From the IMG/VR virus record IMGVR_UViG_3300025769_000256, positions 1 to 41,986 of that record: a DNA stretch of 41,986 bases, one strand, 5' to 3'. Shown here one piece after another: positions 1 through 36,823 of this stretch (the stretch's first letter is position 1; each line of letters opens with the position of its first letter). The notes beneath the pieces were generated by a model. The model worked only from the letters and a program-made list of their open reading frames with translations. It was not told where the DNA came from and made no database searches. The stretch is from a virus. A program made the translations under genes and the position numbers.

Positions 1-258
1 CTTCACCTCTATTGCTGTGAACACTGGCAACTCCTGTCCAACCATATCCTCTGTGATCTTGATCATATGGAACCCAATGAGATCACTGCTCCCCTTACAT
101 AATCCATAGCTGATACCTTGGACGTTGTTGATCACAGCGCTGTTACCCATGCGTGTCACCTTCCCCTGGTATGCCATGCCCGTGTCGTTAACCCATAGCC
201 TCGTGCGCTTACCGCACATCTCCATAGCTATGGTCTTTTGTAGATCCATTTCATTCAT
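1..258 (-). CDS. VRR-NUC family nuclease, left-hand copy, cut by the window edge
   Basis: This is the first 86 codons of the gene that is complete at 41152-41541. The reading frame is open to the window edge, so the catalytic Lys and C-terminus lie outside. The start is the ATG at 258-256, which overlaps the TGA of the helicase gene by one base, indicating translational coupling. It begins MNEMD, where the other copy begins MGNEM. The six substitutions between the copies over bases 1-252 all fall at silent codon positions, so this is a functional strain variant and not a decaying pseudogene. If the genome is circular this is the same locus as 41152-41541. If it is linear with a real duplication, the rest lies upstream of this window. 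Confidence 0.8.
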   Translation of the reverse strand, partial: MNEMDLQKTIAMEMCGKRTRLWVNDTGMAYQGKVTRMGNSAVINNVQGISYGLCKGSSDLIGFHMIKITEDMVGQELPVFTAIEVK

Positions 259-582
259 CAATACCTCTTCCTCCTTGCGTTCCATCTATAGATAGCCCAA
301 CCTGGCTTGTAACCTAGTGATCTACCTAATGCTTGCAACTCCTCTAGCGTCCGACAATCAGCAGCCTTCATGTTAAGCTCAGGCTTCTTCAACGTCTGCT
401 TAGTAACCTCAACCAGGTCCCCATCCACCTCTTCTAACTCAGCCTTTGGCTTACGCTTCGGTACCTTGTAACAGTATGGGCACATCTTTTGCTTACTACT
501 ATATACATTAAAGCAACCTTCGCAAACTGTCACGGCTACAGGTGCAGTCTTTCTCTGCCCCTTCTTCTTACCCTCTAGGGTC
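1..582. repeat. Left copy of the near-terminal direct repeat
   Basis: Bases 1-252 match 41281-41532 with six mismatches. Bases of about 264-395 match the segment starting near 41673 at clearly lower identity. Bases of about 396-582 match to the window end (41986) almost perfectly. Relative to this copy the right-hand copy carries about 125 extra bases between the nuclease and helicase genes. I read this as the overlap of a circular or terminally redundant genome assembled from two strains. The alternating identity (high, low, high) points to past recombination between relatives. Confidence 0.9.
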
Positions 583-1628
583 CACTGTCGGTCATCGTCT
601 GGAAGCCCGTGCCTGACACAGTTACCGACGTGGTCTAGTATGATCGCCGTCTTCCCCTCGACAGGTCTCAGTCCCCTGCCTACCATCTGTAGATACAGAC
701 TTAAACTTTGGGTGGGACGCAATAAGATTACACCCGAACAGTCAGGGACATCGAACCCCTCACTGATTAGAGAACAGTTGCATAGCACCTTACACTTTCC
801 CACCCTAAAATCTTCAATCACCTGGTTGCGCTCACGCTTACTCATCTTCCCATCCACATGAGCAGCTGCAATACCAGCCTCGTTAAACTTCCTCGCTACC
901 TCAATGGAGTGAGAGATCTTTGTGCAAAAGACCAACGCCTTCTCGCCACTAAGGAATCTCTTGTAATGCTTGACCGCATCACCAAGGATACAACTCTTCT
1001 CCACCTGCTCAGCTAACTCCTTAAGGTTGTAGTCACCAGCCATAGTATGTACCTTGCTTAAGTCCAGGTCACTAGGTACACTGAACAATCTGTAAGGACT
1101 GAGGTGACCACGCTCTATCAAGTCCTCAACCTTAGGACCTCGCACTATCTTGTCATAGATTAACTTCAATCCCTTGCCATCTAATCGCTGAGGTGTAGCC
1201 GTTAACCCTATCTGATACGCATCAGGGAAGTGGTCATAGATCTTCTTGTACGTAGCACTGGTACAATGGTGCGCCTCATCTGTCAGGATTAAGTCGAAGC
1301 CTATAGGTAAGCTATCCAACCGCCTGTTCAAGGTCTGCACCATCGCCAGCTGCACTGGCTGACCGTAGTTAGTGTCAGCGTTGGATGTAATAAGGCCATA
1401 CTCAACACCAACCATGTCTAACTTCTCCCTTGTCTGGTCAACTAATTCTTTCAAGTGTACTAAGAACAACACCTTAAGCCCCCGCTCAACTGCATTCTTC
1501 ATCATGAACGCAGCAAGGATAGTCTTCCCTCCACCTGTTGGTAGTTGGAAACAAATCTTCCTGTGCCCCTCGGCGAATGCTTTCCTTATGTTCTCAATAG
1601 ACTTACTCTGGTAGTCCCTAAGCTCCAT
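258..1628 (-). CDS. SF2 DEAH-box DNA helicase
   Basis: A 456-residue ATP-dependent helicase of superfamily 2 (the phage/restriction ResIII-like group). Visible motifs are the Walker A PTGGGKT at residues 30-36, DEAH at 117-120, TATPQR at 143-148 and the motif VI string QMVGRGLRP at 314-322. Two CxxC pairs at Cys369/372 and Cys383/386 form a probable zinc ribbon after the helicase core. The basic C-terminus ends RRKRY. The ATG at 1628 overlaps the upstream gene by 11 bases. It sits between the annealing protein and the VRR-NUC nuclease, so a role in unwinding or remodelling DNA during recombination-dependent replication is likely (inference). The last ~45 codons are diverged in the right-hand copy. 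Confidence 0.93.
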   Translation of the reverse strand: MELRDYQSKSIENIRKAFAEGHRKICFQLPTGGGKTILAAFMMKNAVERGLKVLFLVHLKELVDQTREKLDMVGVEYGLITSNADTNYGQPVQLAMVQTLNRRLDSLPIGFDLILTDEAHHCTSATYKKIYDHFPDAYQIGLTATPQRLDGKGLKLIYDKIVRGPKVEDLIERGHLSPYRLFSVPSDLDLSKVHTMAGDYNLKELAEQVEKSCILGDAVKHYKRFLSGEKALVFCTKISHSIEVARKFNEAGIAAAHVDGKMSKRERNQVIEDFRVGKCKVLCNCSLISEGFDVPDCSGVILLRPTQSLSLYLQMVGRGLRPVEGKTAIILDHVGNCVRHGLPDDDRQWTLEGKKKGQRKTAPVAVTVCEGCFNVYSSKQKMCPYCYKVPKRKPKAELEEVDGDLVEVTKQTLKKPELNMKAADCRTLEELQALGRSLGYKPGWAIYRWNARRKRY

Positions 1629-1830
1629 CGTCTATTGGCTGGTGGAAACGGAACGTGAACCCCGATCTCTCTAGTGCCTCTCTCCCTTCTAGTACCTGAG
1701 CTAACACCCTTAGTGCTGCCACGTACATCTCTGTATTCCTTGCCACTTGGAACAGGTCGTGTCGCCTGATCAACTCCTCTAACATGTCAGACTCTGCGGT
1801 CCTCACAAATAATCTCTTCTTCTCACTCAC
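1618..1830 (-). CDS. Small conserved-context protein, function unknown
   Basis: A 70-residue soluble protein, predicted mostly helical, beginning MSEKKRLFVR. I recognise no family. It overlaps the annealing-protein gene upstream (8 bases) and the helicase downstream (11 bases). Tight coupling on both sides supports a real gene and suggests it works with the recombination proteins. Its size would suit a helicase or annealase accessory factor, but nothing in the sequence proves this. Confidence 0.75.
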   Translation of the reverse strand: MSEKKRLFVRTAESDMLEELIRRHDLFQVARNTEMYVAALRVLAQVLEGREALERSGFTFRFHQPIDDGA

Positions 1831-2569
1831 TTAATTCTTTCTCCTTCTCTTGATACACCACCCATAACTCCTGCTTCTCAGCCTGCGTCAACGAGCTGTG
1901 CTCCTTCAATGTGATAGCTAACTCCTTCAACTCCTCACTCGTAGCGCATGCGTTCACACTCTCTATGGATGTCTTCAGTTCATCTGATTGTCCCTTGAGC
2001 TTAGCCTTGATCGCGTCAACACCACTGTTATCCACCGCCTCTTGCGGAGTGTAGATAGACTCCTCTTCAGCGTAAGCATGAGCCAACTCCTCAGGGAACG
2101 CAAGCCTTAACGCTGCCGCTGTTGCACACTTGTTGATCATGGCAATTGGTTGCTTAGCCCAGCTGCTCTTACCAGTGGAGCGCTCCGCGAAGTACACCCT
2201 TGGTCCAGTGAACGGACAACGGACGCCGTTCACCATCTTGTACACTGTCTGCTGTGCCCACTGTGGCACCTTTGCACTGCCAGCCTGAACAGTTGGACCA
2301 TACTCAATTGGATCCTGACCTGCCCAGCCAGCACGGCTAGCGATAGTGGTGATAGCCTGGATTGTAAACACAATCTCATACTTGTCACCATACGCAATGA
2401 TTGCCACTGGCTTCTTCATCGGATCTAACTTAGCCGCTTGACAATAACCTATTGCTGTCTTCACTACATCGTCAGGTGTCTTGTCATCTACACTCAACAC
2501 CGATTTGATTAGCTTGTATTGCTCTTCAGTGTACTGTACTAGCTCACTAGAATGGGAGATCTGTGTCAT
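1823..2569 (-). CDS. bet: Single-strand annealing protein, Bet/RecT family
   Basis: A 248-residue homologue of the phage recombination protein Bet (lambda Red beta/RecT superfamily), which anneals complementary single strands coated on exonuclease-processed DNA. The N-terminal half shows the family pattern: YTEEQ near residue 14, a cysteine-containing helix followed by KLDP, a KYEIVFTIQA strand, then a RAGWAGQDP turn. The middle contains a conserved KxPxAMINKCATAxALR helix, followed by an acidic EEE stretch. The C-terminal ~60 residues are charged and variable. It overlaps the SSB-like gene by 23 bases. With the PD-(D/E)XK nuclease at 3629-4357 it makes a classic exonuclease/annealase pair. 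Confidence 0.93.
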   Translation of the reverse strand: MTQISHSSELVQYTEEQYKLIKSVLSVDDKTPDDVVKTAIGYCQAAKLDPMKKPVAIIAYGDKYEIVFTIQAITTIASRAGWAGQDPIEYGPTVQAGSAKVPQWAQQTVYKMVNGVRCPFTGPRVYFAERSTGKSSWAKQPIAMINKCATAAALRLAFPEELAHAYAEEESIYTPQEAVDNSGVDAIKAKLKGQSDELKTSIESVNACATSEELKELAITLKEHSSLTQAEKQELWVVYQEKEKELSE

Positions 2570-2789
2570 CTGTCTGAACCTCCGTCACCTCTGGCTTTAC
2601 ATAAGGTGCTTGCAATGAAAGACTAAAGAACTTCTCGCCCGTTGTCTTGTTCGTTTGTATCCACGCTGAGATATCAAAGTCCTTACCATCAAAGTTACCC
2701 TTGCCTGTATACTGTGGCTTCCTACTGCCCTCTTCATAGTACTTGTTCTTACCAAGTGTAGCCCTGTTACTGTTGTCGTATTCTGTCAT
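2547..2789 (-). CDS. Probable small single-stranded-DNA-binding protein
   Basis: An 80-residue protein with a short beta-rich core (GNFDGKDFDISAWIQ, then KFFSLSLQ) resembling the DUF736-like/small SSB-like group. The acidic tail ends TDDTDLPF. A C-terminal Asp-rich run ending in x-Pro-Phe is the hallmark protein-docking tail of bacterial and phage SSBs (DDDIPF in E. coli), and this is the strongest clue. The start has a good Shine-Dalgarno (AAAGGAGAAGATAG before ATG). The position directly before the Bet gene fits a protein that coats the exonuclease product and hands it to the annealase. The SSB role is inferred from the tail and context, not from a full fold match. Confidence 0.7.
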   Translation of the reverse strand: MTEYDNSNRATLGKNKYYEEGSRKPQYTGKGNFDGKDFDISAWIQTNKTTGEKFFSLSLQAPYVKPEVTEVQTDDTDLPF

Positions 2790-3105
2790 CTATCTTCTCC
2801 TTTCCATCTATCGTGGCAGTGTATACCCCACGTCTTACTCTCTTTATGAAGTCTGCCTCTGTTAACTTCTTCAACTGCTTGTTGATACCAGAGGCACCCC
2901 GGTTCAATATATATATTATGTCCCGTGCCTCCATCTCCCCTCGCTCTACTAATAACTCTAGTACCTCGTAGCCTAACTCACTTGGCTCCATCACCCTGTA
3001 GTATTGGTAACACTCTAAGTGAAACCGATACTGCTTGCGACCACCCAAGTAATTAGCTTGATTGTACGTCTCTATATCCTGACCACATATCTCACAAGAC
3101 CTCAC
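2767..3105 (-). CDS. Zinc-finger plus winged-helix protein, putative regulator
   Basis: A 112-residue protein starting at GTG (3105), preceded by a strong AAGGAGGAG ribosome site. The N-terminus has a C-x2-C pair (CEIC, residues 4-7) and a later HLEC (His29, Cys32), which together could bind one zinc. Residues ~45-100 read as a winged helix-turn-helix: a helix, DIIYILNRGASGINKQLKKL as the recognition region, then a VRRGVYTA wing. Such proteins usually bind DNA. It overlaps the SSB-like gene by 23 bases. It could be an early/middle transcription regulator or a replication accessory protein, and the sequence does not separate these. Confidence 0.75.
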   Translation of the reverse strand: MRSCEICGQDIETYNQANYLGGRKQYRFHLECYQYYRVMEPSELGYEVLELLVERGEMEARDIIYILNRGASGINKQLKKLTEADFIKRVRRGVYTATIDGKEKIDDRIRQQ

Positions 3106-3253
3106 TTAACTCCTCCTTGATGATCTCTACTGCCATACGACAACCCCACACCAAGTACACTAAGAAAAATAAGAAGGACAACTGACCAGGGATTGCATCA
3201 CCCACGCCCATCACAATGACCATCAATGTTAACGCTGCTATCCACTCAATCAT
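3092..3253 (-). CDS. Small membrane protein, 53 residues
   Basis: A 53-codon open frame. It starts at the ATG at 3253-3251, which overlaps the stop of the previous gene as ATGA, and ends 14 bases inside the next gene. It is very hydrophobic: residues ~3-20 (EWIAALTLMVIVMGVG) and ~24-37 (LSFLFFLVYLVWG) give two probable membrane segments, followed by a charged tail MAVEIIKEELSEVL. The back-to-back overlaps at both ends and the membrane-like composition support a real gene. It carries the ribosome site for the downstream GTG start. Function is unknown. Holin-like and superinfection-exclusion roles are both possible for such proteins. Confidence 0.7.
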   Translation of the reverse strand: MIEWIAALTLMVIVMGVGDAIPGQLSFLFFLVYLVWGCRMAVEIIKEELSEVL

Positions 3254-3444
3254 GACCCCTCCCTCTTGGTTAAACCCAAAACATCTGGCTCCTTACCTTG
3301 ATAAGCAAGGAACTCATCGAACGTTAAACGTAATGACCTTAACTCTTCCTCTAAATCCTGAAGCTTACGCTCTATCCTACCAACGGGATCATCTGCTATC
3401 CTGCGCTGTGCCTCTACTATCCCTTGGATAATCTTGTTGATCAT
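3250..3444 (-). CDS. Small helical (coiled-coil) protein, function unknown
   Basis: A 64-residue charged helical protein. Residues ~20-45 (DPVGRIERKLQDLEEELRSL) have heptad-like leucine/isoleucine spacing expected of a short coiled coil. The start has a good site (AGGAGGTAGGTT before ATG). It overlaps the upstream membrane gene by 4 bases and the downstream membrane gene as ATGA. Lying between two small membrane proteins, it may form a complex with them, but no family is recognised. Confidence 0.75.
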   Translation of the reverse strand: MINKIIQGIVEAQRRIADDPVGRIERKLQDLEEELRSLRLTFDEFLAYQGKEPDVLGLTKREGS

Positions 3445-3632
3445 AACCTACCTCCTGTTGATACCTTCACCCACACATAGAACAAGGCTAAGTGTGCCAT
3501 CACCTCAATCGGAATCCAGATAGGGCTTGCTACCCACACCCATGACCAATCCAAGTAACCGAAGATCTTGCCCACTGCAAACACTAACGTTAACAGCGTC
3601 AAGAATAATAAACTAACTGCGTTCGTTCTCAT
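3441..3632 (-). CDS. Two-span membrane protein, 63 residues
   Basis: Residues ~5-25 (AVSLLFLTLLTLVFAVGKI) and ~32-57 form two transmembrane segments joined by a tryptophan-rich loop containing DWSWVWVASPIWIPI. The W-x-W...P-x-W-I-P pattern is typical of small phage membrane proteins annotated as 'transmembrane Fragile-X-F', whose role is not established. The ATG overlaps the stop of the exonuclease gene by four bases, so the two are probably translationally coupled. A holin-like activity cannot be excluded but is not indicated. Confidence 0.78.
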   Translation of the reverse strand: MRTNAVSLLFLTLLTLVFAVGKIFGYLDWSWVWVASPIWIPIEVMAHLALFYVWVKVSTGGRL

Positions 3633-4357
3633 AGCTCTATCACCTCCTTGCTATACCCATGCCATACACCACTAGCACTACACTCCTTGTATAAAGCTAA
3701 CAACCTACGCCTGTGCTCATGTGCCTCGTCAATCAACGCTTGATTAATTGAATACACCTGCACTACATATGGTGACTCCTTCTCCTGAGCTATCACCATC
3801 GCACCAGGGTATGCGTCACGACCAGTTGACTGCTTCACTGCCGCTTGGTAGTGTGCCAACTGTAACAAGTAACCCATGTCCAACACCTTATACCGAAACT
3901 TCTCCGGACTCGCATCAATACATGTCTTATAGTCCGCTATGTAATACGCCTCTGCATTGTATATGTCTAGCTTACCCTTGCACTGAACCTCATCCTCTAC
4001 CCAGAAGAAAGGTGCCTCAAACTCTGAGTCTGCCATCACTAAACTACTAGCCTGATCTAAACGTACTGCATCTACCATCTCCTCGGCAGCTGCCATGTCC
4101 TGATGGCGGACAAGAGGACGACCAGTCGCTAACAACGCAGCGTAATCCTTGTTCCTCTTGTCCCTTCGCATGCCCTCAGGTAAGACAAGGTAGTTGCTAC
4201 TGCCTGGCTCCAACAGTAAACTGTGCACGAGAGAACCAAACTGCATTGCCTCTGTTGGCTCCTTAGGATTGTCAACTGCCTCCCTATAATGAGCCGGACT
4301 CCTAGCTAGTAACCCCAACCTTGATCCACTTAATCCTTCTTGTTCGTAATATTCCAT
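3629..4357 (-). CDS. PD-(D/E)XK exonuclease, RecE/exonuclease VIII-like
   Basis: A 242-residue nuclease of the PDDEXK_1/exodeoxyribonuclease VIII-like group. The expected sites are visible in order: GSLVHSLLLEP (His45), Glu114 in SEFEAPFFW, CKGKLD with Asp131, DYKT with Asp142 and Lys144, and the QLAHYQ helix at ~166-171. Such enzymes chew one strand of duplex ends to give the single strand that a Bet/RecT protein anneals. The gene lies in the same operon as Bet. It starts at an ATG after the phage's standard leader (AAGGAGTAGAATAG). It is a few genes downstream of an intrinsic terminator, so its level may depend on readthrough. Confidence 0.9.
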   Translation of the reverse strand: MEYYEQEGLSGSRLGLLARSPAHYREAVDNPKEPTEAMQFGSLVHSLLLEPGSSNYLVLPEGMRRDKRNKDYAALLATGRPLVRHQDMAAAEEMVDAVRLDQASSLVMADSEFEAPFFWVEDEVQCKGKLDIYNAEAYYIADYKTCIDASPEKFRYKVLDMGYLLQLAHYQAAVKQSTGRDAYPGAMVIAQEKESPYVVQVYSINQALIDEAHEHRRRLLALYKECSASGVWHGYSKEVIEL

Positions 4358-4385
4358 TCTATTCTACTCCTTATATCCTACCACA

Positions 4386-4532
4386 CTATTGGTAGCTGTT
4401 CCATCCTCTTGCGTGTATGTGTAAATGATTGATGTCCAATTCAAATTGATAACCCAATACCAATAACAACAACAACACTACACCCAACACTACTGCTACA
4501 TCTGTACCCGCTTGCTTTAATCTATCCAACAT
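4386..4532 (-). CDS. Small single-span membrane protein, 48 residues
   Basis: I start this gene at the ATG at 4532, because GGAGAGAGGAAG precedes it. A longer frame to 4586 would run through the terminator hairpin and has no ribosome site. Residues ~10-28 (AVVLGVVLLLLLVLGY) form one membrane helix preceded by a charged MLDRLKQAGTD N-terminus. A short tail follows that contains histidines (HLHIHARG). No family is recognised. It is the first gene after the terminator at 4548-4590. Confidence 0.65.
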   Translation of the reverse strand: MLDRLKQAGTDVAVVLGVVLLLLLVLGYQFELDINHLHIHARGWNSYQ

Positions 4533-4547
4533 CTTCCTCTCTCCTTT

Positions 4548-4590
4548 AAAAAAATAGAGCCGGCGGAGAATGATGAGAAAAACCACCGGC
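4548..4590 (-). terminator. Intrinsic terminator inside the early operon
   Basis: Read on the minus strand, an 8-bp stem GCCGGTGG / CCGCCGGC (one G-U pair; arms at 4583-4590 and 4559-4566) encloses a 16-base loop and is followed by TCTATTTTTTT. This is a textbook rho-independent terminator between the secreted coiled-coil gene (4604-5077) and the small membrane gene. It separates the immediate early cluster from the recombination and replication genes. I saw no obvious promoter directly after it, so readthrough or antitermination would be required. Confidence 0.85.
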
Positions 4591-4603
4591 CCATAACTGT
4601 TAA

Positions 4604-5077
4604 CTACTTGCGCAAGTACCCCGTCTCTTCGAGGTAAGGATTAGGCACACTCTCCGCTAACCTATCTTTCTTACCACCATAGTTGACGTTGTTCTCCGCT
4701 CTAGCTCTGTCATCTCTACGAAGATCTGCTCTAGCGCCTACTGTCATCTCATGGACACCAACTCTCTCGATCCTGCCCGAGGTCCTCTTTGTCTCAGCTA
4801 CTAAGAACTTCTCGTTAGCTGCGTACCTGCGCTTACATGCCTTGATCGAATCCTTTAACCTATCAATCTCTGCTGCTGTTGCATCAATTGCGTTGTTATA
4901 GTCCTCTCTTCTAGCTTGTAAGTCTTTCTTGTGGCTCTTATACATAGCTATCTTTTGCTCGTAATCTCTAATCTCTGGCGTTGCAATCCTGTGCTTGCTC
5001 CATGGCATCGCACTAGCCTGCCCAACACTGCCAATCAATACCCCTGCTATTCCTATTACCTTTACTATTCTATCCAT
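4604..5077 (-). CDS. Exported coiled-coil protein, function unknown
   Basis: A 157-residue protein with an N-terminal signal peptide: a basic start, a hydrophobic core VIGIAGVLIGSVG and a probable cleavage site after ASA at residues 21-23. Residues ~35-95 are a charged helical region with coiled-coil spacing (EQKIAMYKSHKKDLQ, EIDRLKDSIKACKRR). The C-terminal third is polar and arginine-rich. The start is well supported by GGAAGGAGAACAGAACA before ATG. It is the last gene before the terminator at 4548-4590. It would act in the periplasm or cell envelope. A spanin-like or exclusion role is conceivable, but the early position argues against a simple lysis role. Confidence 0.78.
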   Translation of the reverse strand: MDRIVKVIGIAGVLIGSVGQASAMPWSKHRIATPEIRDYEQKIAMYKSHKKDLQARREDYNNAIDATAAEIDRLKDSIKACKRRYAANEKFLVAETKRTSGRIERVGVHEMTVGARADLRRDDRARAENNVNYGGKKDRLAESVPNPYLEETGYLRK

Positions 5078-5104
5078 TGTTCTGTTCTCCTTCCTTCAAC
5101 GGGC

Positions 5105-5476
5105 TCACACCCATAACTGCTCCAACTGCAACGCACATACTGCCACGTTGCCCATCTCATACTCACGCAACACCTTAAGAAACGCGCTCTCGATCTCCTC
5201 AAGTACACTCTCCACGTTCAACAAGATACCCGCGGCATCATGGAATCCCGTGTCATCCTGAATCTCATTGATCAACTGATCAATCCTATCCTGTGCCTGG
5301 TCACGTAACCGAGCACTAAGACTAGTCAACTCCTCCACATTCTCATCCGTCAACGCCATAAACTGTCCGCTATCCTCATAAGGCTCACTTGCAAAGTTCA
5401 ACAACTCAGTCTGAGATCGCTGTATACTCGCTAGTCTACGATCGTATCGCTTCCTGATTACACCTTTGTGCCACAT
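5105..5476 (-). CDS. Acidic helical protein, function unknown
   Basis: A 123-residue protein with a basic N-terminus (MWHKGVIRKRYDRR) and an acidic, helical remainder rich in Glu, Asp and Leu (for example SLSARLRDQAQDRIDQLINE and VESVLEEIESAFLKVLREY). Its start overlaps the end of the preceding gene by 19 bases. I recognise no family. Small acidic early proteins of this kind are often host-takeover or anti-defence factors, but there is no direct evidence for either here. Confidence 0.72.
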   Translation of the reverse strand: MWHKGVIRKRYDRRLASIQRSQTELLNFASEPYEDSGQFMALTDENVEELTSLSARLRDQAQDRIDQLINEIQDDTGFHDAAGILLNVESVLEEIESAFLKVLREYEMGNVAVCALQLEQLWV

Positions 5477-5802
5477 AACTGTACCTCCCTCAACATCACT
5501 TCAATTGCTCGCATCCTATCCTGTCCTATCATCTGTCGCACTAAGCTTGGCTCCCAATCTTCATCGAACACGTTCAACTCACCCTCACGATAGACAAACT
5601 CTAAGCGCCTCTTGTTCAACTCATTCCATGGAACCAATTCAAAACCATGGCGAGTCCACTCTAAGTCGAAACCTAACTCAACATCACCATGATAACCAAA
5701 GCTAGGGTCATGCAGCCAACGCTCCAGTATGCCCTTCAATCCCTCACCATCACAGTGCTGAAACACCAAGTCATCTACTACACTCTGCCAGAAATCTTGC
5801 AT
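5458..5802 (-). CDS. Early protein of unknown function
   Basis: A 114-residue, acidic, tryptophan-rich protein beginning MQDFWQSVVDDLVF. The start is preceded by GCTGAGGAGAGACG, a good ribosome site. It overlaps the upstream gene by 25 bases and the downstream gene by 19, showing tight packing in the early operon. The mixed alpha/beta composition (VELGFDLEWTRHGFELVPW reads as paired strands) suggests a compact folded domain. No family is recognised. Confidence 0.72.
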   Translation of the reverse strand: MQDFWQSVVDDLVFQHCDGEGLKGILERWLHDPSFGYHGDVELGFDLEWTRHGFELVPWNELNKRRLEFVYREGELNVFDEDWEPSLVRQMIGQDRMRAIEVMLREVQLCGTKV

Positions 5803-5963
5803 CGTCTCTCCTCAGCTAACGCTTCCCCTACTACCTCTGCTACAACCATCAAGTTGCTACTAACCACCTTGAGAAGATGATCGTTCAAGCCATGCTTAAA
5901 CCAAAACTCCCTCAGATCATTCAAGTACTGATAAGTCTTGTCTTCCATCTTAACTATACTCAT
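5778..5963 (-). CDS. Small early protein, function unknown
   Basis: A 61-residue helical protein. The frame is open from 5978, but I place the start at the ATG at 5963 (MSIVKMEDKTYQYL), which has a GAGG nine bases upstream. A third in-frame ATG at 5948, just after the stop of the small frame 5950-6027, is also possible. The sequence reads as two amphipathic helices (FWFKHGLNDHLLKVV and LMVVAEVVGEALAEE). It overlaps the next gene by 25 bases. No family is recognised. Confidence 0.6.
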   Translation of the reverse strand: MSIVKMEDKTYQYLNDLREFWFKHGLNDHLLKVVSSNLMVVAEVVGEALAEERRCKISGRV

Positions 5964-6027
5964 GCGCCAATACCTCACACTCTAACTGCTCCAATAACTC
6001 TTTATCTATCTCTATTACATATTCCAT
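5950..6027 (-). CDS. Possible very small early protein, 25 residues
   Basis: A 25-codon open frame from the ATG at 6027 to the TAA at 5950. AAAGGA lies eight bases upstream of the start. The product is strongly acidic and helical (EIDKELLEQLECEVLAHEY). It overlaps the start of the next gene, which is the arrangement used throughout this operon. The small size keeps confidence low. Ribosome profiling or conservation in relatives would decide. Confidence 0.4.
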   Translation of the reverse strand: MEYVIEIDKELLEQLECEVLAHEYS

Positions 6028-6166
6028 TCCATCATTCCTTTGTTTGTTCTACTGTTATCTATTGAGTAAGCAATACACGAAGATAATAAATATTACTGCT
6101 AATACTATCCATAACACTGTTTCTATCATTGCCATACCCTATCGAGTTCCTGGTATCAGGAACACG

Positions 6167-6352
6167 TTATACTCTCACCCTTCTATATGGGCTTAATTGA
6201 ATATACTCATAAGCATGACCCGCTGCTAAAAACTCATACTTAGTGCCAGTGAACCCACAGCTAGGACTATAAAATACTTGTTCACATTGGAACCTATTAG
6301 TATTCTTCCAGCCCTTTGATTCTATATCGTTTGGTAATTGTATCTCTATCAT
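6167..6352 (-). CDS. First early gene, 61-residue protein of unknown function
   Basis: It starts at the ATG at 6352 with AAAAGGA seven bases upstream, and lies about 28 bases after the predicted start of transcription from the promoter at 6387-6415. It is therefore likely to be the first protein made after infection. The product is a small soluble protein with two cysteines (Cys23, Cys32) and several aromatic residues (FYSPSCGFTGTKYEF). No family is recognised. Position alone suggests a host-takeover or counter-defence role (inference). Confidence 0.68.
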   Translation of the reverse strand: MIEIQLPNDIESKGWKNTNRFQCEQVFYSPSCGFTGTKYEFLAAGHAYEYIQLSPYRRVRV

Positions 6353-6366
6353 GTCATCATTCCTTT

Positions 6367-6424
6367 TATAACTTTGTTATACCCAAAGTATATCATTATA
6401 TAACGGTATATGCAAGGATATAAC
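6367..6424. promoter_or_regulatory. TATAAC operator-like cluster over the early promoter
   Basis: The hexamer TATAAC occurs at 6367-6372, 6399-6404 and 6419-6424, and in inverted form (GTTATA) at 6376-6381. The first and the inverted copy form a perfect dyad, TATAAC-TTT-GTTATA, over the predicted transcription start of the early arm. The other two lie in and just upstream of the -10/-35 region. This is the arrangement expected for a repressor that shuts off the early promoter. AT-richness makes chance copies more likely, so confidence is moderate. Confidence 0.4.
6387..6415 (-). promoter_or_regulatory. Sigma70-type promoter of the early (minus-strand) arm
   Basis: Read on the minus strand: TTGCAT (-35, bases 6415-6410), a 17-base spacer, then TATACT (-10, bases 6392-6387). 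Transcription would begin near 6380, leaving a leader of about 28 bases before the ATG at 6352. Five of six matches in the -10 and four of six in the -35, with ideal spacing and the correct position before the first early gene, make this convincing. Use by the host RNA polymerase fits the lack of a phage RNA polymerase gene. Confidence 0.7.
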
Positions 6425-6546
6425 TATTAAATTTCCTTAATGTAACCAAGGAAGATAACAAGTACCATACTACCATATTGCTACCATACGCTGTAACGCA
6501 CTCTAGGAAAGGGATACAAAGGAATTTGAACGAAAATATGGTAGGC

Positions 6547-6566
6547 AGCTAGGTTAAGCTAGGGTA
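6547..6566 (+). repeat. Tandem 10-bp repeat
   Basis: Two adjacent decamers, AGCTAGGTTA and AGCTAGGGTA, differ by one base. A 10-base period places both copies on the same face of the helix, which suits cooperative protein binding. It lies four bases after the inverted TACCATA copy. Confidence 0.5.
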
Positions 6567-6670
6567 AATTGAAAAAAATTGGAGCGGGAGTAGATTTAGC
6601 AAAAAATCATTGGGCTATCGAGTGGAAAACTACCATATTTACTAACTTTATATATTATTTATTAGTTATT

Positions 6671-6688
6671 AGTAGTAGTAGTAGTAGT
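6671..6688 (+). repeat. (AGT)6 trinucleotide repeat
   Basis: Six uninterrupted AGT units, followed by degenerate TGT/AGT units to about 6696, between AT-rich sequence and the TGTAAG sites. It is non-coding. Repeats like this can vary in length between strains by slippage. Confidence 0.9.
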
Positions 6689-6769
6689 TGTAGTTGTTTT
6701 TCTTCCTTTGTGTAAGGTGGGCGGATAGTGAGATAGAGCGTTTGTAAGAGTGGTAAGATAAGAGTTTTC

Positions 6770-6789
6770 ATGTAAGGGTACCCTTACAT
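6770..6789. promoter_or_regulatory. 20-bp perfect palindrome with flanking TGTAAG half-sites
   Basis: ATGTAAGGGTACCCTTACAT is a perfect dyad. Related TGTAAG half-sites occur upstream near 6711 and 6742, and inverted (CTTACA) at 7009-7014. This looks like an operator for a dimeric repressor or activator. It lies next to a TACCATA copy (6791-6797), so two proteins could compete. The product of the gene at 7193 is a natural candidate binder, but this is only inference. Confidence 0.55.
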
Positions 6790-6919
6790 CTACCATATTC
6801 GCTATGAAACAGGGGAATTGATGGTAAGCACGCAGCGGCCGCTCTGTGCCCCGTCACGCTGCGAAAACGTGCCCCGACCAATAAGAACCTACCAAAAGTC
6901 AAAAACGGCTCAGGAAAAG

Positions 6920-6960
6920 CCCCCCACCCCCCCCTCTGTGACAGGCCTAACGTTCCCCCC
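6920..6960 (-). other. G-quadruplex-capable tract (G runs on the minus strand)
   Basis: The plus strand has C6 (6920-6925), one A, C8 (6927-6934), then C6 (6955-6960). The minus strand therefore carries G6, G8 and G6 runs, with only one base between two of them. That is enough for four or more G-triplets. It sits in a GC-rich island (about 6810-6965) within AT-rich surroundings. An identical GTGCCCCG octamer is present twice just upstream (6846-6853, 6869-6876). Confidence 0.6.
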
Positions 6961-7157
6961 TCGCAAAAAATTTTATAAATACGGGTTAGGACTATGTATT
7001 TCACCCCTCTTACATGGGAGTGTTTCGATATCATTTCACATATTGTTTCATGTTAATATACCTAATTGCATCACTACGTAATCTTAGTGTTTCGCTACAT
7101 GTTTTAATATCTTTTAACTTGGATATAAGAGTTACAAAGGTAAGAGACATATAGTGG

Positions 7158-7186
7158 TTGACTTTATATTTCAATTGTGTTACGAT
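7158..7186 (+). promoter_or_regulatory. Sigma70-type promoter of the late (plus-strand) arm
   Basis: TTGACT (7158-7163), a 17-base spacer, and TACGAT (7181-7186). Seven bases beyond the -10 is 7193, the A of the ATG of the first late gene, so the message is predicted to be leaderless. There is no Shine-Dalgarno in the preceding bases, which agrees. A small inverted repeat TTGCA-GTA-TGCAA (7186-7198) spans the start site and could be an autoregulatory operator. Confidence 0.65.
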
Positions 7187-7192
7187 TGCAGT

Positions 7193-7549
7193 ATGCAAGA
7201 CAAAAAGAAAGCGTTTAACGTAGTTGTAAGAGGGGTGGTTGTGGAAAAGATCCGCGAATTGTCAAAAGTGCATGATATTTCTCAGCCTAAGGTGATGGAG
7301 TATGTGTTTATGACGTACGGATCGGCGATCCCCGGGGTGCCATTAGCTCCTGGGAAACCCGTTGGTGGAAAGCTTTTCGACCCAGACGAGGTGCCGTTGG
7401 GAGTGTATAAGGCTATGTGCCGTGAGCGCATGGGATTCCACACAGATTTGCATCAAATGTTGGCAAGGGGCGAGGAGTTTGATCCGCTAGGGTTTCCCCT
7501 ACAATGGCAGCGTGAGATGGCAGAAGAGGTGTTAGCAGAGAGTGAGTGA
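7193..7549 (+). CDS. Putative ribbon-helix-helix DNA-binding protein, first gene of the late arm
   Basis: The frame is open from a GTG at 7154, but the promoter lies inside that extension. I therefore start at the ATG at 7193, giving 118 residues. The N-terminus is basic (MQDKKKAF), followed by a strand VVVRGVVV and two helices (EKIRELSKVHDIS and PKVMEYVFMTYG). This order resembles the ribbon-helix-helix fold of Arc/MetJ-type repressors. The C-terminal half (DPDEVPLGVYKAM) is of unknown type. It sits at the divergence point with operator-like repeats upstream, so it could regulate the switch or act as a terminase small-subunit-like DNA binder. The fold call is by eye only. Confidence 0.65.
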   Translation: MQDKKKAFNVVVRGVVVEKIRELSKVHDISQPKVMEYVFMTYGSAIPGVPLAPGKPVGGKLFDPDEVPLGVYKAMCRERMGFHTDLHQMLARGEEFDPLGFPLQWQREMAEEVLAESE

Positions 7550-8246
7550 GTACTACGCTACGGCTAAGGCATTAAAGGCAAAGGGTGAGGGTGATAGCGC
7601 AATGTTGGACAAGTTGCTTTCGTATCCGGCAACCCATGGTCATGCTATCAGCGTTGCTTGTCAACTGTTACCCGTTGTAGACCAGTGCTGGAGTGTGTTT
7701 CGTGAGCGTCATGAGTTAGACGCAGGTCAGCGGAACCGTTTTTGCGAGCAGGGTTTTACAGCGTTGATCAGTGAGTTAGACCGTCAGGCACCTAAGCGTT
7801 TCCCTTACCAGGAGAAGCGTTGGTGGCAGGAGTTATCTCGGTACTTATGTGGTGATGGTGATCCTATTGTATTGGGTGCAGCTAAGGAGAACCGTTGGCA
7901 GCCACTTCGTCAGCGTGTAGCCTCAGTTCCATTGGAGGCAATGCAGCGTGAGTTGGAGTTAGTTAGTTATACTGAGAGCAGTAGTGAGGAGCGTTTAGAG
8001 CCTTTAATCCAGGAGTTACAGATGAAGGCGTTGCAGGCGATTCGTGATGATGAGGTTCAGGGTCGTGATGCGGTGAAGACGTTTACGGATATGGTGAAGC
8101 TTCAGGCGCAGTTGAAGGGTGAGTTGAAGGAGAAGGTGGACATAGAGATCAGTCCTGGACAGGCATACAAGGAGTTGTTGTTGAACCCGGGTCGTTTTCA
8201 TGCAGAGGTATTGGAGGGTGACGAGCCCCCGAGGTTGATAGGATGA
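7542..8246 (+). CDS. Possible terminase small subunit
   Basis: A 234-residue, highly charged, mostly helical protein starting at GTG (7542), which overlaps the previous gene by 8 bases. The C-terminal third (AVKTFTDMVKLQAQLKGEL, then SPGQAYKELL) resembles the oligomerisation and tail region seen in many terminase small subunits. The middle is rich in Arg/Glu helices. Its place upstream of the large terminase and near the start of the late arm agrees. However, several unrelated small genes intervene, and I do not see a clear helix-turn-helix, so the assignment is tentative. Confidence 0.5.
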   Translation: MSEYYATAKALKAKGEGDSAMLDKLLSYPATHGHAISVACQLLPVVDQCWSVFRERHELDAGQRNRFCEQGFTALISELDRQAPKRFPYQEKRWWQELSRYLCGDGDPIVLGAAKENRWQPLRQRVASVPLEAMQRELELVSYTESSSEERLEPLIQELQMKALQAIRDDEVQGRDAVKTFTDMVKLQAQLKGELKEKVDIEISPGQAYKELLLNPGRFHAEVLEGDEPPRLIG

Positions 8247-8428
8247 TGGGTGACGAGTCAATATTCATAGGTATAAAGGACGGGGAGATGCAGATAACGA
8301 TTCCGGGGCATGTATCGGTAGAGATCCAGGAGGACATGATCAAGGTGAATCCTAGTGACACAGTGGTTTCCATCCGTAATGAGTCCTTGGACGAGTTGGC
8401 AAGAGAGGAGAACGAAGAGAATGGATAG
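8243..8428 (+). CDS. Small acidic protein, function unknown
   Basis: A 61-residue acidic protein (MMGDESIFIGIKDGEMQITI) with alternating hydrophobic strands in the first half and an acidic tail (LAREENEENG). It begins ATGA on the stop of the preceding gene and overlaps the next by 8 bases. The tail-end sequence GAGGAGAACGAAGAGA also serves as the ribosome site for the following gene. No family is recognised. Confidence 0.72.
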   Translation: MMGDESIFIGIKDGEMQITIPGHVSVEIQEDMIKVNPSDTVVSIRNESLDELAREENEENG

Positions 8429-8855
8429 AGCGAGAGGGTTCTTAGGCTTCAGTTTATTACCGGAGATTTATCCAGTTTCAATTCATGTGGTTTATTCAGA
8501 TGATGAGGAGAGGATTGGGAAGTTTTTCAGCAAGGCTGTTGGGGAGGATGAGTTAGTGCGTCAACCTTGTGATATAACAGTGAGACCAGATGCATTGGTG
8601 TCATCTTACGGCGAGCATATATTAATGGAGTTTCGTCCAGATGAAAAGCGTGGTGGTGCTGCATTGGCTGCATTAGTTGCACACGAGGCGGTGCATGCGA
8701 GCTGGCGGTTAGAGCGAATAGTAGGTGATTGTTTTGATATGAACATCCAGGAGCCCCAATGTTACTTCGTTCAATACTTAGTTGGGGAGATTACGAATCG
8801 TATATGGGAGCATCTAGAGAAAAGGAAGAAGAATGGAAAAAGAAATAAGAGATAA
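8421..8855 (+). CDS. Putative zinc metallopeptidase-like protein (HExxH)
   Basis: I start at the ATG at 8421 (144 residues), because GGAGAACGAAGAGA precedes it. The longer frame from 8355 reads through the previous gene. Residues 82-95 contain the zincin signature HEAVH (His88, Glu89, His92) on a hydrophobic helix (ALAALVAHEAVHASW). A glutamate ~20 residues later (Glu111 in EPQCYFVQYL) could be the third ligand, as in gluzincin-like enzymes. Similar HExxH proteins of unknown role occur in many phage genomes. A peptidase function is inferred from the motif only. It does not look like a prohead protease by position or fold. Confidence 0.7.
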   Translation: MDRARGFLGFSLLPEIYPVSIHVVYSDDEERIGKFFSKAVGEDELVRQPCDITVRPDALVSSYGEHILMEFRPDEKRGGAALAALVAHEAVHASWRLERIVGDCFDMNIQEPQCYFVQYLVGEITNRIWEHLEKRKKNGKRNKR

Positions 8856-9000
8856 GGTGGCGATACAGGAGATGATAAGGAGGGTTTGGGATGAGGCTTT
8901 TAAGGAAGGAAAACGGGCGGCTCGCGAGGAAATAACTCACGACAGGTTGGTAAACCAGTATATTAAGGAATTAATTCAAGAGGTTGTAGAGAATGGATAG
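8833..9000 (+). CDS. Small charged helical protein, 55 residues
   Basis: A 55-codon gene. The start ATG at 8833 follows AAAGGAAGAAGA and overlaps the end of the HExxH gene by 23 bases. The stop overlaps the next start (ATGGATAG). The product is a single charged helix (MEKEIRDKVAIQEMIRRVWD, later EEITHDRLVNQYI). Coupled overlaps on both sides support a real gene. No function is recognised. Confidence 0.65.
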   Translation: MEKEIRDKVAIQEMIRRVWDEAFKEGKRAAREEITHDRLVNQYIKELIQEVVENG

Positions 9001-9313
9001 AGTAAGAGAGTTAATGGGTCGTTACATGGATCGTATGGACGACGAAGCGGTTAAGGGGTTGGTTTACGAAATGTACTTGGAGTTAGGGGTGAGCTTTTTC
9101 GACCATCAAGTTCATAGTAGACAAGCGGAAATTAGTCACCTTCATCCAGAGGAGTTGCGAGACCTTTACTGGGCGCTAACCAAGGATATCGGTGAGTCAT
9201 GTCGAGGAGGGATGTGCCTGTCTACTTGGCAGGTAATAGAGAGAGCGGCTGTGTCGTACACGTTAGGCGGAGTTGTACCAGAGAAGGAGCGTCCATGGTG
9301 GAAGGTATGGTAG
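8993..9313 (+). CDS. Conserved-looking protein of unknown function
   Basis: A 106-residue helical protein starting MDRVRELMGRYMDRM. The ATG overlaps the previous stop (ATGGATAG), and GTTGTAGAGA lies upstream. Two cysteines (CRGGMC) lie near residue 70, and a Trp-rich C-terminus ends PWWKVW. No family is recognised. It is embedded in the run of small accessory genes between the terminase subunits. Confidence 0.72.
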   Translation: MDRVRELMGRYMDRMDDEAVKGLVYEMYLELGVSFFDHQVHSRQAEISHLHPEELRDLYWALTKDIGESCRGGMCLSTWQVIERAAVSYTLGGVVPEKERPWWKVW

Positions 9314-9582
9314 AGGTAAGTCGTGAGGAGTTTCTAAACGCGAGTAGTCGTTTACGTGGCAGGTATAAGGGCAGTCGTACAGCGAGGACTGAGCCAGTGC
9401 TGATGCGTAACTGGAAGGTATTTGAGACATTACAATCGAAGAGCGGTTTAGTGTTGGCTCAGGTGGAGTATACGTTTCCTAGTCAGGGAGTGGCACAGGA
9501 GGCGCATGATGAGATGCATCATGTGCAGCTGGCTAGTAGTGTGAAGTATGTGGTCAAGGACGCAGCCGATGACCAGAGTTAG
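9295..9582 (+). CDS. Small protein of unknown function
   Basis: The frame is open from 9199, but the ATG at 9295 has AAGGAG five bases upstream, giving 95 residues (MVEGMVEVSREEF). An ATG at 9307 is the alternative. The first half is basic (SSRLRGRYKGSRTART) and the second is mixed strand/helix (LVLAQVEYTF). It overlaps the previous gene by 19 bases. No family is recognised. Confidence 0.68.
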   Translation: MVEGMVEVSREEFLNASSRLRGRYKGSRTARTEPVLMRNWKVFETLQSKSGLVLAQVEYTFPSQGVAQEAHDEMHHVQLASSVKYVVKDAADDQS

Positions 9583-9608
9583 TAGATGGCTGTAATAAGG
9601 AGAATAAG

Positions 9609-9890
9609 ATGGAGACAGTAGATTTTGGTACAGTTCTTAATGAGCTTAAGAACTATAGTGCAACGGCATATAGAAAAGGATGGAACGGTAAAGGAATTTA
9701 CATTATGTTGCAGGTTCCTGATGAACATAGCAAAATGACATTACCTTATATTTATATCGTGACGAACGATTTAGAGGGGGATAATCCAGATGCCCCTAAA
9801 GGATGCGTCCCTTGGCTTGCGAGTCAAACGGACATGTTAGCAGAGGACTGGATAATTAGATCAGCGCAATCAAATATAAAAGGAGAATAA
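9609..9890 (+). CDS. tad2: Tad2-like anti-Thoeris protein (DUF2829 family)
   Basis: A 93-residue protein with the two signature blocks of DUF2829/Tad2: RKGWNGKG at residues 22-29 and PWLASQTDMLAEDW at 68-81, with the FG...L...L start typical of the family. Characterised Tad2 proteins are small oligomeric sponges that bind the glycocyclic-ADPR signal made by Thoeris defence, so the effector is never activated. The start has the standard leader (AAGGAGAATAAG). The gene's own stop lies in the ribosome site of the next gene. It is an early-looking anti-defence function placed in the packaging segment of the late arm, which is unusual. I am confident of the family. Activity against a given Thoeris type is inferred. 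Confidence 0.9.
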   Translation: METVDFGTVLNELKNYSATAYRKGWNGKGIYIMLQVPDEHSKMTLPYIYIVTNDLEGDNPDAPKGCVPWLASQTDMLAEDWIIRSAQSNIKGE

Positions 9891-9891
9891 G

Positions 9892-10089
9892 ATGGCGAGA
9901 ATAGTACGTAAAGCATTGGAGATAGATATGGAGAAGGTAAAAGAGATAGTACCTCCTTCAGAGATAGAGGGTTATATAATCATGGGCGGTCATTGTAACG
10001 CAAATGAGTTGACTTTAGATCTAATGCAGTTAGAGAAGAAGGAAGAGATCGAGGCGCTACAAGCAGAGCAACCTAGTGCGGAATCCTAA
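9892..10089 (+). CDS. Small protein upstream of terminase, function unknown
   Basis: A 65-residue protein (MARIVRKALEIDMEKVKEIV) with a short central hydrophobic turn (GYIIMGGHC) and a charged helical tail (LEKKEEIEALQAEQ). The start follows AAAAGGAGAATAAG. Its last 14 bases overlap the large terminase start, so the two are probably translated together. No family is recognised. Confidence 0.7.
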   Translation: MARIVRKALEIDMEKVKEIVPPSEIEGYIIMGGHCNANELTLDLMQLEKKEEIEALQAEQPSAES

Positions 10090-11662
10090 TTGGACAGATG
10101 AAGAGGTAACGCCCGAGTTTGTCATTGCTAAGTTTCAGCAGTGGCGTAAGGACCCATGGCGTTTCTACACGGATATGGTGTGGACGGCGGACGAATCGGA
10201 CATAGATGATCCGGTGAAGCCGTTCACTCCTTTCGCGTACTTGCATGAGTTTCATCGAGCAGTTGAGGACCACGACACTACTATAGTAGTGAAGGGTCGT
10301 CAGATGTTTTTCACTTGGGCAGTAGCTGCGAGGTTTGTTTACAACTTGTTGTTCAAGCCTTATAGCAGGTCAGTGTTCATGTCACAGCGTGAGAGTCAGG
10401 TAGAGGATGTGATTGCTAAGCGGATGGTGTTCATCTTGAGCCAATTAGATGACCGGTTTCCCTGGCCTGATTTCAGTAAGAAGTCGATTAAGCGGATGAG
10501 TATTGATCATCCTGATAGTGAGGTTCGCTCTTTAATAGTAGGTACCCCAAGTGGTGAGGATCAGGCTCGTGGTATGACGGGTACTGAGTTATGGTTTGAT
10601 GAGTTTGGCTTTCTAGAGAACCAGGATCTGATCTTGAAGACGGCGCGTCCTTTGATTAAGAAGGGTAAGACTAAGATGATCATTACATCTACCCCTAACC
10701 CTGACACTCATTACGAGGATTTAGTTAAGAGTGTAGAGGACGGGACTCACAAGGAGCACATGGAGGGTGTGTGGAGTCATGAGAATCAGAACGGTGACTA
10801 CGTGTTATCGGTTCGTTATGATGCACATCCAGACCAGAGAACAGAGGAGTGGGCAGAGGCTAAGCGTCGTGAGGTAGGTGAGCTTGCGTGGCGGATTGAG
10901 TATTGTTTGGAGTGGACATTACCGAAGGGTAAGCCGGTATTCCCGGAGTTTCAGTTTGACACTTACTGTTTACCTTATGAGAAGCATCGCACTCCAGATA
11001 GGGCAAACCCTATTGGTTTAGGCTTCGACTTTGGTGGTCATTTCCCTAGTATGGTTGCTCACGAGAAGGATTCATTGGGTAGGTGCGTAGTACATTTAGC
11101 TATCCTTGGCGAGGATGTTGACTTGGATTCGTTCTTAGTAGACATTGTCAACCCTGCATTGGCGGAGAAGTTCCCTGGTGTCACGAACTTTAACATCTCT
11201 TGTGACCCAGCTGGTGAGGCTATTAGTGGTCAGGGGGTTGGTGCCCCTGCAAAGGACGTGTTGGAGAATCACTTCCAGTTGCCAGTGAGTTGTCAGCGAA
11301 CAAACCCGGGTGACAGGGCAAGGGTGATTAAGATCTTGATGAACAAGATGAAGGGTGGTACACCTGGTATCTTGATAGCTCCTGACTTGGGTCATTACTA
11401 TAGGGTAGACGGTACGGTAATTAAGGGGGTAATGGTAGAGGGCTTTAAGCATGGGTACGTTTATGCTAAGAAGCGAGGGACTAAGGCGAACACATATCAC
11501 TTAGACCCATATAAGGACGGACTATATGATCATTTATTTGATGCGTGGGGCTATCGTTTTATTTATGATTTCCCTGCTTTGCTCGAGATGGTTAGCTACA
11601 CGGAGCGGAAGGCAGGTAGAGTTAAGAAGAAGAAGAGTCGCAAGCGACATTTTCGACGCTGA
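10076..11662 (+). CDS. terL: Terminase large subunit (packaging ATPase-nuclease)
   Basis: A 528-residue DNA-packaging motor. The N-terminal ATPase shows a divergent P-loop region VKGRQMFFTW at 72-81 (of the kind found in many terminases, lacking a classical GKT), a Walker B strand LWFDE at 172-176, and the coupling motif TSTPNP at 204-209. The C-terminal RNase H-like nuclease has acidic residues at Asp318 (GLGFDFGG), Asp377 (SCDPAG) and the late HLFDAWGYRF. The C-terminus is strongly basic (KKKKSRKRHFRR). Translation starts at a GTG with a weak ribosome site inside the previous gene, so coupling is likely. A different P-loop alignment is possible, but the family is not in doubt. Confidence 0.95.
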   Translation: MRNPNWTDEEVTPEFVIAKFQQWRKDPWRFYTDMVWTADESDIDDPVKPFTPFAYLHEFHRAVEDHDTTIVVKGRQMFFTWAVAARFVYNLLFKPYSRSVFMSQRESQVEDVIAKRMVFILSQLDDRFPWPDFSKKSIKRMSIDHPDSEVRSLIVGTPSGEDQARGMTGTELWFDEFGFLENQDLILKTARPLIKKGKTKMIITSTPNPDTHYEDLVKSVEDGTHKEHMEGVWSHENQNGDYVLSVRYDAHPDQRTEEWAEAKRREVGELAWRIEYCLEWTLPKGKPVFPEFQFDTYCLPYEKHRTPDRANPIGLGFDFGGHFPSMVAHEKDSLGRCVVHLAILGEDVDLDSFLVDIVNPALAEKFPGVTNFNISCDPAGEAISGQGVGAPAKDVLENHFQLPVSCQRTNPGDRARVIKILMNKMKGGTPGILIAPDLGHYYRVDGTVIKGVMVEGFKHGYVYAKKRGTKANTYHLDPYKDGLYDHLFDAWGYRFIYDFPALLEMVSYTERKAGRVKKKKSRKRHFRR

Positions 11663-11714
11663 TATAGACATTGAATACACGGCGTGTTAATCTATTTTTA
11701 GGAGAACATTAACA

Positions 11715-12287
11715 ATGGCATCAATTACTAAGAAAAATTCAATCCCTTATGACTTTACTACTGACGGTCAAGCGGGTTTAACAGCTACCTCTGGTGGCAT
11801 TAAGTCAGTTGGACTAAGCGGCGAATTAATCGCAACAGGTCTGGACACAGCTAACAAGACGCCAGCTATCAGTCATGGTGGTGACGTACTTGAGCTAGGT
11901 CTTAGAGGCAAGTGGTACTATGACTTTGCTACTGACGGTGGAGCAATTGGCGACGTAACCCTACGTGGTCCTAAGCTTCCTTTGGGCGCAGTTGTTACAG
12001 GTGGTTACATCTATAATACAACCGCTATGACTTCCGGTGGCTCGGCTACTGTAGCGATCAACATCCCTACAGATGACGCAGCTGGTATCAAAGCGGCAAC
12101 GGCTTATGGTACTATCGGCGCAGCAGGTCCTGTGGCGATCATCCAAACTGGCGCAGCAGCAAACATCTCTGAGATCACAACTGACGAGAGAGATATTACT
12201 ATTACAATCGCAACAGCAGCTTTAACTGCTGGAGCATTTGTTCTAGTTCTTAACTACGATATCGTGAAAGCAGATACGACTAGTTAA
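11715..12287 (+). CDS. Probable abundant virion protein (head decoration or fibre)
   Basis: A 190-residue, Gly/Ala/Thr-rich, beta-structured protein without cysteine. It contains strand-turn patterns (TSGGIKSVGLSGELIATGL, GAFVLVLNYDI). The sequence style and position (between terminase and portal) match small virion surface proteins of short-tailed phages. A strong ribosome site (TAGGAGAACATTAACA) precedes it and a strong intrinsic terminator follows directly, so the message end is fixed after this gene. This implies that more of it is made than of the portal. Decoration, head fibre or head-completion roles are all possible, and the sequence alone does not choose. Confidence 0.7.
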   Translation: MASITKKNSIPYDFTTDGQAGLTATSGGIKSVGLSGELIATGLDTANKTPAISHGGDVLELGLRGKWYYDFATDGGAIGDVTLRGPKLPLGAVVTGGYIYNTTAMTSGGSATVAINIPTDDAAGIKAATAYGTIGAAGPVAIIQTGAAANISEITTDERDITITIATAALTAGAFVLVLNYDIVKADTTS

Positions 12288-12302
12288 TTAGTCCCCCCGA
12301 CA

Positions 12303-12335
12303 TGAGGGTCGCTACGGTGGCCCTCACCCTTTTTT
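12303..12335 (+). terminator. Intrinsic terminator with a TACG tetraloop, abutting the next start codon
   Basis: Arms TGAGGGTCGC (12303-12312) and GTGGCCCTCA (12317-12326) pair over ten positions with two G-U wobbles, closing a C(TACG)G loop of the extra-stable UNCG class. CCC and six T follow (12330-12335), and the ATG of the next gene starts at 12336. Readthrough is required for everything downstream. Confidence 0.88.
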
Positions 12336-12773
12336 ATGGCAGACATCACAACAACATTATTGAACGCTGTCGATCCCAGTACCACTGGGACCTTTTACAG
12401 TTCACCGGTCTTTGACACTAAGGACTATCGAGACTTTGCTTTTGTGCTTTCTATGCCTTCACAGTCCGGTACTTCCTCGGACTTGCTTGACGTTTGGATC
12501 GAGCAGAGTAGCGAGAAGGCGTTCACGAACGCACATAAGACAACGACCTTGACTTTAACCGCAGCGGACGGGACAACCGCAACACAGTTCACGCAGGTGG
12601 CAGGTAACCTTACCCTACCTAGTGACACCCATACATCTACGAATCTACGCCAGGTCTTGTACTTCCCCGAGGTAAACATTGGGCGTTATATCCGAGTGAA
12701 GTATACAGTGGCAGGAACAGCAACTAACCTCACAGATATAACACTTGATGTATTATGTAATAGGAAGGTTTAA
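12336..12773 (+). CDS. Beta-rich structural protein before the portal
   Basis: A 145-residue protein with a jelly-roll or beta-sandwich look (DYRDFAFVLSMPSQ, LLDVWIEQSS, GRYIRVKYTVAG) of a type frequent near phage head genes. The start ATG directly follows the T-tract of the terminator and has no Shine-Dalgarno, which is exceptional here. No in-frame ATG with a better site lies near. Its stop overlaps the portal start as TAATG. Expression must depend on terminator readthrough, possibly with a leaderless or hairpin-exposed start. Role: probably a minor head protein. Confidence 0.75.
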   Translation: MADITTTLLNAVDPSTTGTFYSSPVFDTKDYRDFAFVLSMPSQSGTSSDLLDVWIEQSSEKAFTNAHKTTTLTLTAADGTTATQFTQVAGNLTLPSDTHTSTNLRQVLYFPEVNIGRYIRVKYTVAGTATNLTDITLDVLCNRKV

Positions 12774-15124: not shown

Positions 15125-15135
15125 AGGAGAACAGA

Positions 15136-15399
15136 ATGGAACAGAAGAGAAAAACGCGGACGCATAGGACTGGGGACTTTAAACCTCCCGAGGATTTAGA
15201 GGATAAGGTCAAGGTCTCGGTCAACAAGATTATAGATCGCATGCCACAAGAGTGGGAGGCGGTTATGCAATGGCTTAGGTCTAAGGCTATAGCTGTGCCA
15301 GTTAACCCCAATGACGAAGAGGTGGTTAAGGCAGAGTACCATAGGAAATCACAAGTAGTACAAATAGTAAACAAGCTGCAAGGCTTTGAATTAGTTTAA
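15136..15399 (+). CDS. Small protein between portal and scaffold, function unknown
   Basis: An 87-residue protein with a very basic N-terminus (MEQKRKTRTHRTGDFK) and a helical remainder (DKVKVSVNKIIDRMPQEWEAV). It starts after GAGGAGAACAGA. The position between portal and scaffold suggests a minor head-assembly component. No family is recognised. Confidence 0.75.
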   Translation: MEQKRKTRTHRTGDFKPPEDLEDKVKVSVNKIIDRMPQEWEAVMQWLRSKAIAVPVNPNDEEVVKAEYHRKSQVVQIVNKLQGFELV

Positions 15400-15410
15400 G
15401 GAGAATAGAC

Positions 15411-16241: not shown

Positions 16242-16277
16242 GTAGTTATGATACTTTAGTTATAGGAGAACAAAATT

Positions 16278-17501: not shown

Positions 17502-17520
17502 GAATAGATTACTACGGCCC

Positions 17521-17548
17521 GGGGAGGTGAAAGCCTCCCCCTTTTTTT
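17521..17548 (+). terminator. Intrinsic terminator after the major capsid gene
   Basis: Seven G-C/A-T pairs (GGGGAGG at 17521-17527 with CCTCCCC at 17534-17540) plus a T-G pair close a GAAA tetraloop. Seven T follow (17542-17548). This separates the capsid from the tail genes and would raise capsid message over tail message. Confidence 0.93.
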
Positions 17549-17581
17549 AGAACAGAACAGACATAAGGAGAATAGAATAGA

Positions 17582-21000: not shown

Positions 21001-21014
21001 ACTATAATTGAGGT

Positions 21015-36214: not shown

Positions 36215-36241
36215 AATAGGGGGTAAGGAGAATAGAATAGA

Positions 36242-36454
36242 ATGGAACAGAAACAACCAATGATACAGATACCTGCAAATTTAGTTAAACTAGCTTATGA
36301 CTATCTTTGCACAAGACCATACAAAGAGTGTGGCTTATTGATAAGAGCTTTCGAGATCTTGCTCAACCCTAATCCAGAGCCAGAAAAGAAAGCCAAGCCT
36401 AAGGTAAAGGAGAAAAAGAATGGCACTAGTGGGAAGCAAGGGACCTCAGACTAA
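36242..36454 (+). CDS. Small lysine-rich protein, function unknown
   Basis: A 70-residue protein. The first ~45 residues are helical (IPANLVKLAYDYLCTRPYKE), and the tail is a Lys/Pro/Glu-rich low-complexity segment (KKAKPKVKEKKNGTSG). Its leader, AAGGAGAATAGAATAGAATG, is identical to that of the gene at 17582. It overlaps the next gene by 35 bases. No family is recognised. Confidence 0.68.
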   Translation: MEQKQPMIQIPANLVKLAYDYLCTRPYKECGLLIRAFEILLNPNPEPEKKAKPKVKEKKNGTSGKQGTSD

Positions 36455-36821: not shown

Positions 36822-36823
36822 CC

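Follow-up and report, generated by a model that had tools for sequence, protein, structure and literature searches.

The window analysed here is the whole of IMG/VR record IMGVR_UViG_3300025769_000256 (41,986 nucleotides, one strand), and its two ends carry the same stretch of DNA in two versions. The question is whether both versions belong to one molecule or were brought together by assembly. Almost certainly, an assembly of short reads from a mixed population went once round the circularly mapping 41,406-bp genome of an uncultured tailed phage, with a strain variant attached as a tip. The finding that drew attention to this locus was a correct reading of an ordinary assembly effect.

Bases 1–580 matched 41281–41986, with copy lengths of 580 and 706 bp. 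The original prediction had let bases 1–582 recur at 41281–41986; the overlap itself was real, both in BLAST and in a base-by-base comparison, and the end of the left copy had to be moved, to 580. In a self-BLAST, 1–273 aligned with 41281–41552 (95%, E 4.5e-121), and 261–580 aligned with 41667–41986 (90%, E 3e-123). Besides the two ends, just one pair of 21-mers recurred across the whole window, so a chance match of the ends is excluded. The following features make up the overlap:

1–580, no strand: left-hand overlap copy; variant haplotype (minor or partly sampled), read as an assembly-graph tip
41281–41986, no strand: right-hand overlap copy; haplotype continuing into 581, 100% identical to contig 3300006810_009515
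1–99, no strand: exact identity over 99 bases with 41281–41379; 99 is a metaSPAdes k value
454–580, no strand: exact identity over 127 bases with 41860–41986, the merge point; 127 is the usual largest metaSPAdes k

Two genes of the phage, each cut by a window end, appear twice:

258–1628, minus strand: superfamily II DNA helicase, 456 aa (PHROG 16, E 2.4e-118; Pfam ResIII and Helicase_C); the final 43 codons belong to the variant haplotype
41661–41984, minus strand: C-terminal 107 codons of the same helicase in the right haplotype, ending in RYG*
1–285, minus strand: 5' part of the VRR-NUC nuclease gene, left haplotype, with the 3' end cut by the window edge
41152–41541, minus strand: complete VRR-NUC nuclease gene, 129 aa, right haplotype (Pfam PF08774, E 1.8e-8)

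The end copies differed by 37 substitutions in total and one 126-bp indel, the extra bases being in the right-hand copy. The indel had gone unmentioned before. Six substitutions (at 100, 130, 166, 178, 181 and 198) fell in the nuclease part (bases 1–252), and all six were silent; the original prediction had likewise counted six, all silent. The C-terminal part of the helicase (bases 261–580) held 31 substitutions across 22 codons. Sixteen of the 22 codon changes were silent, and the other six altered the amino acid (L/I, A/S, D/Q, T/S, A/Q, S/E). In addition, the helicase C terminus was one residue longer in the right copy (RYG*, vs RY* in the left), and together these changes account for the roughly seven residue differences predicted. 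The silent bias and the preserved reading frames rule out random error, as had been argued from the letters alone. The left copy diverged from the right copy solely within 100–453, with all reading frames kept; this confinement may be only apparent, because any run of 127 shared bases would have made the assembler merge the strains, and they could also differ elsewhere.

Could the left end be a piece of another phage's helicase–nuclease junction that was misjoined to this genome? No exact match in IMG/VR viral contigs came up for two probes taken from the left haplotype, and both haplotypes are known solely as short pieces, which would be compatible with a chimera. A probe from the insert of the right haplotype had 3300006810_009515 as its sole match. 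Against a chimera, the left copy equals the main genome over 1–99 and 454–580 and keeps every reading frame, which makes it the corresponding locus of a close relative. A foreign misjoin is thus improbable, and a chimera between strains of the same phage, if one wishes to call it so, is the mixed-population explanation itself.

A second contig bears on how the circle closes. 3300006810_009515 (12,928 bp) was found by a helicase search of IMG/VR. It was 100% identical to window 41257–41986 (730 bp) and then ran unbroken into 581–12779. The right-hand copy was present once, and there was no second copy. With respect to window 581–11628, only two substitutions were found (3027 and 7672). When the comparison was extended to 261–11628, there were 33 substitutions: 31 were exactly the differences between the two end copies, and two were elsewhere (3027 and 7672). 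Those two show that the contig is not a copy of the window, and its sample is possibly not independent. As this contig runs from the right copy into 581, position 41986 joins 581 and gives a closed genome of 41,406 bp, with the reservation that the contig is a short-read assembly itself and may have been joined via the 127-bp identical stretch. The genome is complete at this length once closed at 41986/581. Two further contigs agreed with the window: 3300025630_000034 matched at 100% wherever compared (7007–21659 and 35500–37869), and 3300022183_001704 matched at 100% where compared (7264–14696).

The ends of the overlap carry the signature of a de Bruijn assembler. Only one 127-mer of the window occurred twice, at 454 and at 41860, the latter being the last 127-mer of the window, and no 128-mer was repeated. 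metaSPAdes has been run with k = 21, 33, 55, 77, 99 and 127, and it is documented to leave contig ends as long as the maximum k where there are repeats or within-population variants (PMC10914622). Strain bubbles can also end contigs early (PMC10563150). The following course of assembly would produce such a record. One sub-population would have carried a different version of the helicase–nuclease junction. In the k=127 graph, this variant would form a tip (1–580) that joins the main circle through the 127-mer 454–580. The assembler would start on the tip, go once round the circle and stop at 41986 on meeting that 127-mer again, which gives the path the shape of a lasso. The assembler was probably metaSPAdes, with k steps of 99 and 127. 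From one number, 99, we infer that position 1 may mark where a contig from the k=99 step stopped; this contig would have been passed on to the k=127 step because the variant was too thinly covered at k=127.

We checked this course on a toy graph consisting of the 41,406-bp circle and the left copy as a tip, walked from the tip with each edge used once. At k=127, all 41,986 letters of the window were reproduced exactly; as the graph takes the window as input, this is consistency and not independent proof, and the specific outcome is the k value. The walk gave a wrong length at k=119 and 141, and at k=77 and 99 the tip was absorbed into a bubble without a free end or source vertex. That the bubble closes at k=99 agrees with a left end fixed at that step.

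The exact k-length overlaps and the join in the second contig support a circular or permuted genome from a mixed population, for which about 41.3 kb had been predicted. The alternative named alongside it, a tandem duplication, was contradicted by the single-copy contig. It would mean that one linear molecule carries the helicase–nuclease junction twice, some 41 kb apart, as a true duplication whose copies have diverged. In its favour, one contig holds two diverged copies. However, the near-identical contig 3300006810_009515 passes from the right-hand copy into 581 without a second copy, each copy is truncated by a window end at an assembler k length, the window has no sequence outside the copies, and in related phages a single helicase gene precedes a single VRR-NUC gene. 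We consider a duplication highly unlikely.

Direct terminal repeats of the T7 type come in sizes that include 580–706 bp, so the presence of such a length at both ends falls in the range expected for physical repeats of a linear virion genome whose ends differ. This has hardly any probability either, as repeats made by packaging are copies of one sequence and identical in every virion (PMC10563150), whereas these ends are separated by all the substitutions and the indel given above, the limits of the overlap follow from identity runs of 99 and 127 and not from a packaging site or gene boundary, and both ends lie within coding genes. The overlap itself is no evidence of terminal redundancy in virions.

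With the window read as a lasso round a circular genome, bases 1–580 should be left out when copies are counted, and closing the circle leaves the nuclease whole. The IMG/VR record is listed as having no end repeats. The contig breaks described with COBRA (PMC10914622) and Phables (PMC10563150) show the same maximum-k end overlap where strain paths meet and are closable by overlap. Unlike in those cases, the k-length overlap here is no plain self-overlap but follows a diverged block of about 580 bp, and for this reason tools that look for identical end repeats miss the overlap and class the record as none. A terminal overlap ending in an exact assembler-k run is hence a testable sign of complete phage genomes overlooked by the identical-end-repeat test.

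Across the join, the leftward gene block from 6352 through 581/41986 to 37965 becomes one run, which, like the gene order shared with other phages described below, speaks for the closed circle. It includes exonuclease VIII-like, RecT-like, helicase, VRR-NUC and primase genes. Two further features belong to this block:

38604–41171, minus strand: primase/helicase, the next gene in the same leftward operon (PHROG 35358, E 3.9e-84; Zn_Ribbon_Prim)
41534–41668, minus strand: 44-codon ORF, right haplotype only, coupled to the helicase stop on one side and the nuclease start on the other by ATGGGTAA overlaps

Bordetella phage PBb001 and Serratia phage MQ-4 have the same order of helicase, VRR-NUC and primase on one strand. 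Their helicases were ~39% identical to the window helicase over the full length, and the VRR-NUC match of PBb001 was weak (17.3 bits, under the Pfam cut-off). Overall, both are different phages from the window phage. The gene between helicase and VRR-NUC encodes 109 aa in PBb001 and 63 aa in MQ-4, and Synechococcus phage S-LBS1 has a 636 bp hypothetical protein gene at this place. As these three phages carry differing small genes there, a variable slot between helicase and nuclease is unsurprising.

The 44-codon ORF is restricted to the right copy because of the 126-bp indel. In that copy, the helicase stop, the 44-codon ORF and the nuclease start were chained via ATGGGTAA overlaps, with a AGGAGAAAG-like site ahead of each overlap, and the ORF had identical AGGAGAAAG / ATGGGTAACGAA joints on either side. 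In the left copy, without the ORF, the start of the nuclease ORF fell within the helicase gene. The 44-residue peptide had no tblastn match among phage records. Tentatively, the helicase–nuclease junction might be a small gene-exchange slot, in which co-occurring strains gain or lose a coupled 44-codon ORF, bounded on both sides by the same ribosome-binding-site-like AGGAGAAAG and ATGGGTAACGAA, along with a local block of changed helicase C-terminal codons. The biology that remains is a localised strain difference with presence or absence of a small ORF; it is of modest interest and amounts to ordinary phage microdiversity.

Window DNA 1–700 had no blastn match among phage records, and for 1–12000 there was no close phage record. 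The large terminase (10076–11662), looked at for signs of headful (pac) packaging, had a T4-type N-terminal domain (PF03237) and weak matches to terminases of T4-like and jumbo phages. Among 50,697 phage records, its relatives were remote only (23–27% over about half the length). Judged by these comparisons of sequence, the window phage is far from described phages. No host is proposed, because a search of viral contigs with the primase and a search of bacterial and archaeal genomes with the large terminase gave no relative.

Two further genes were observed outside the overlap. A virion-like protein of 1839 aa (29157–34676) contained internal repeats, with 29997–30224 resembling 33888–34115 (73%) and 29679–29794 resembling 33360–33475 (75%). 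A protein of 358 aa (35138–36214) combined a laminin-G-like/concanavalin-type domain with DUF2341 and is possibly a host-surface or glycan-binding virion protein.
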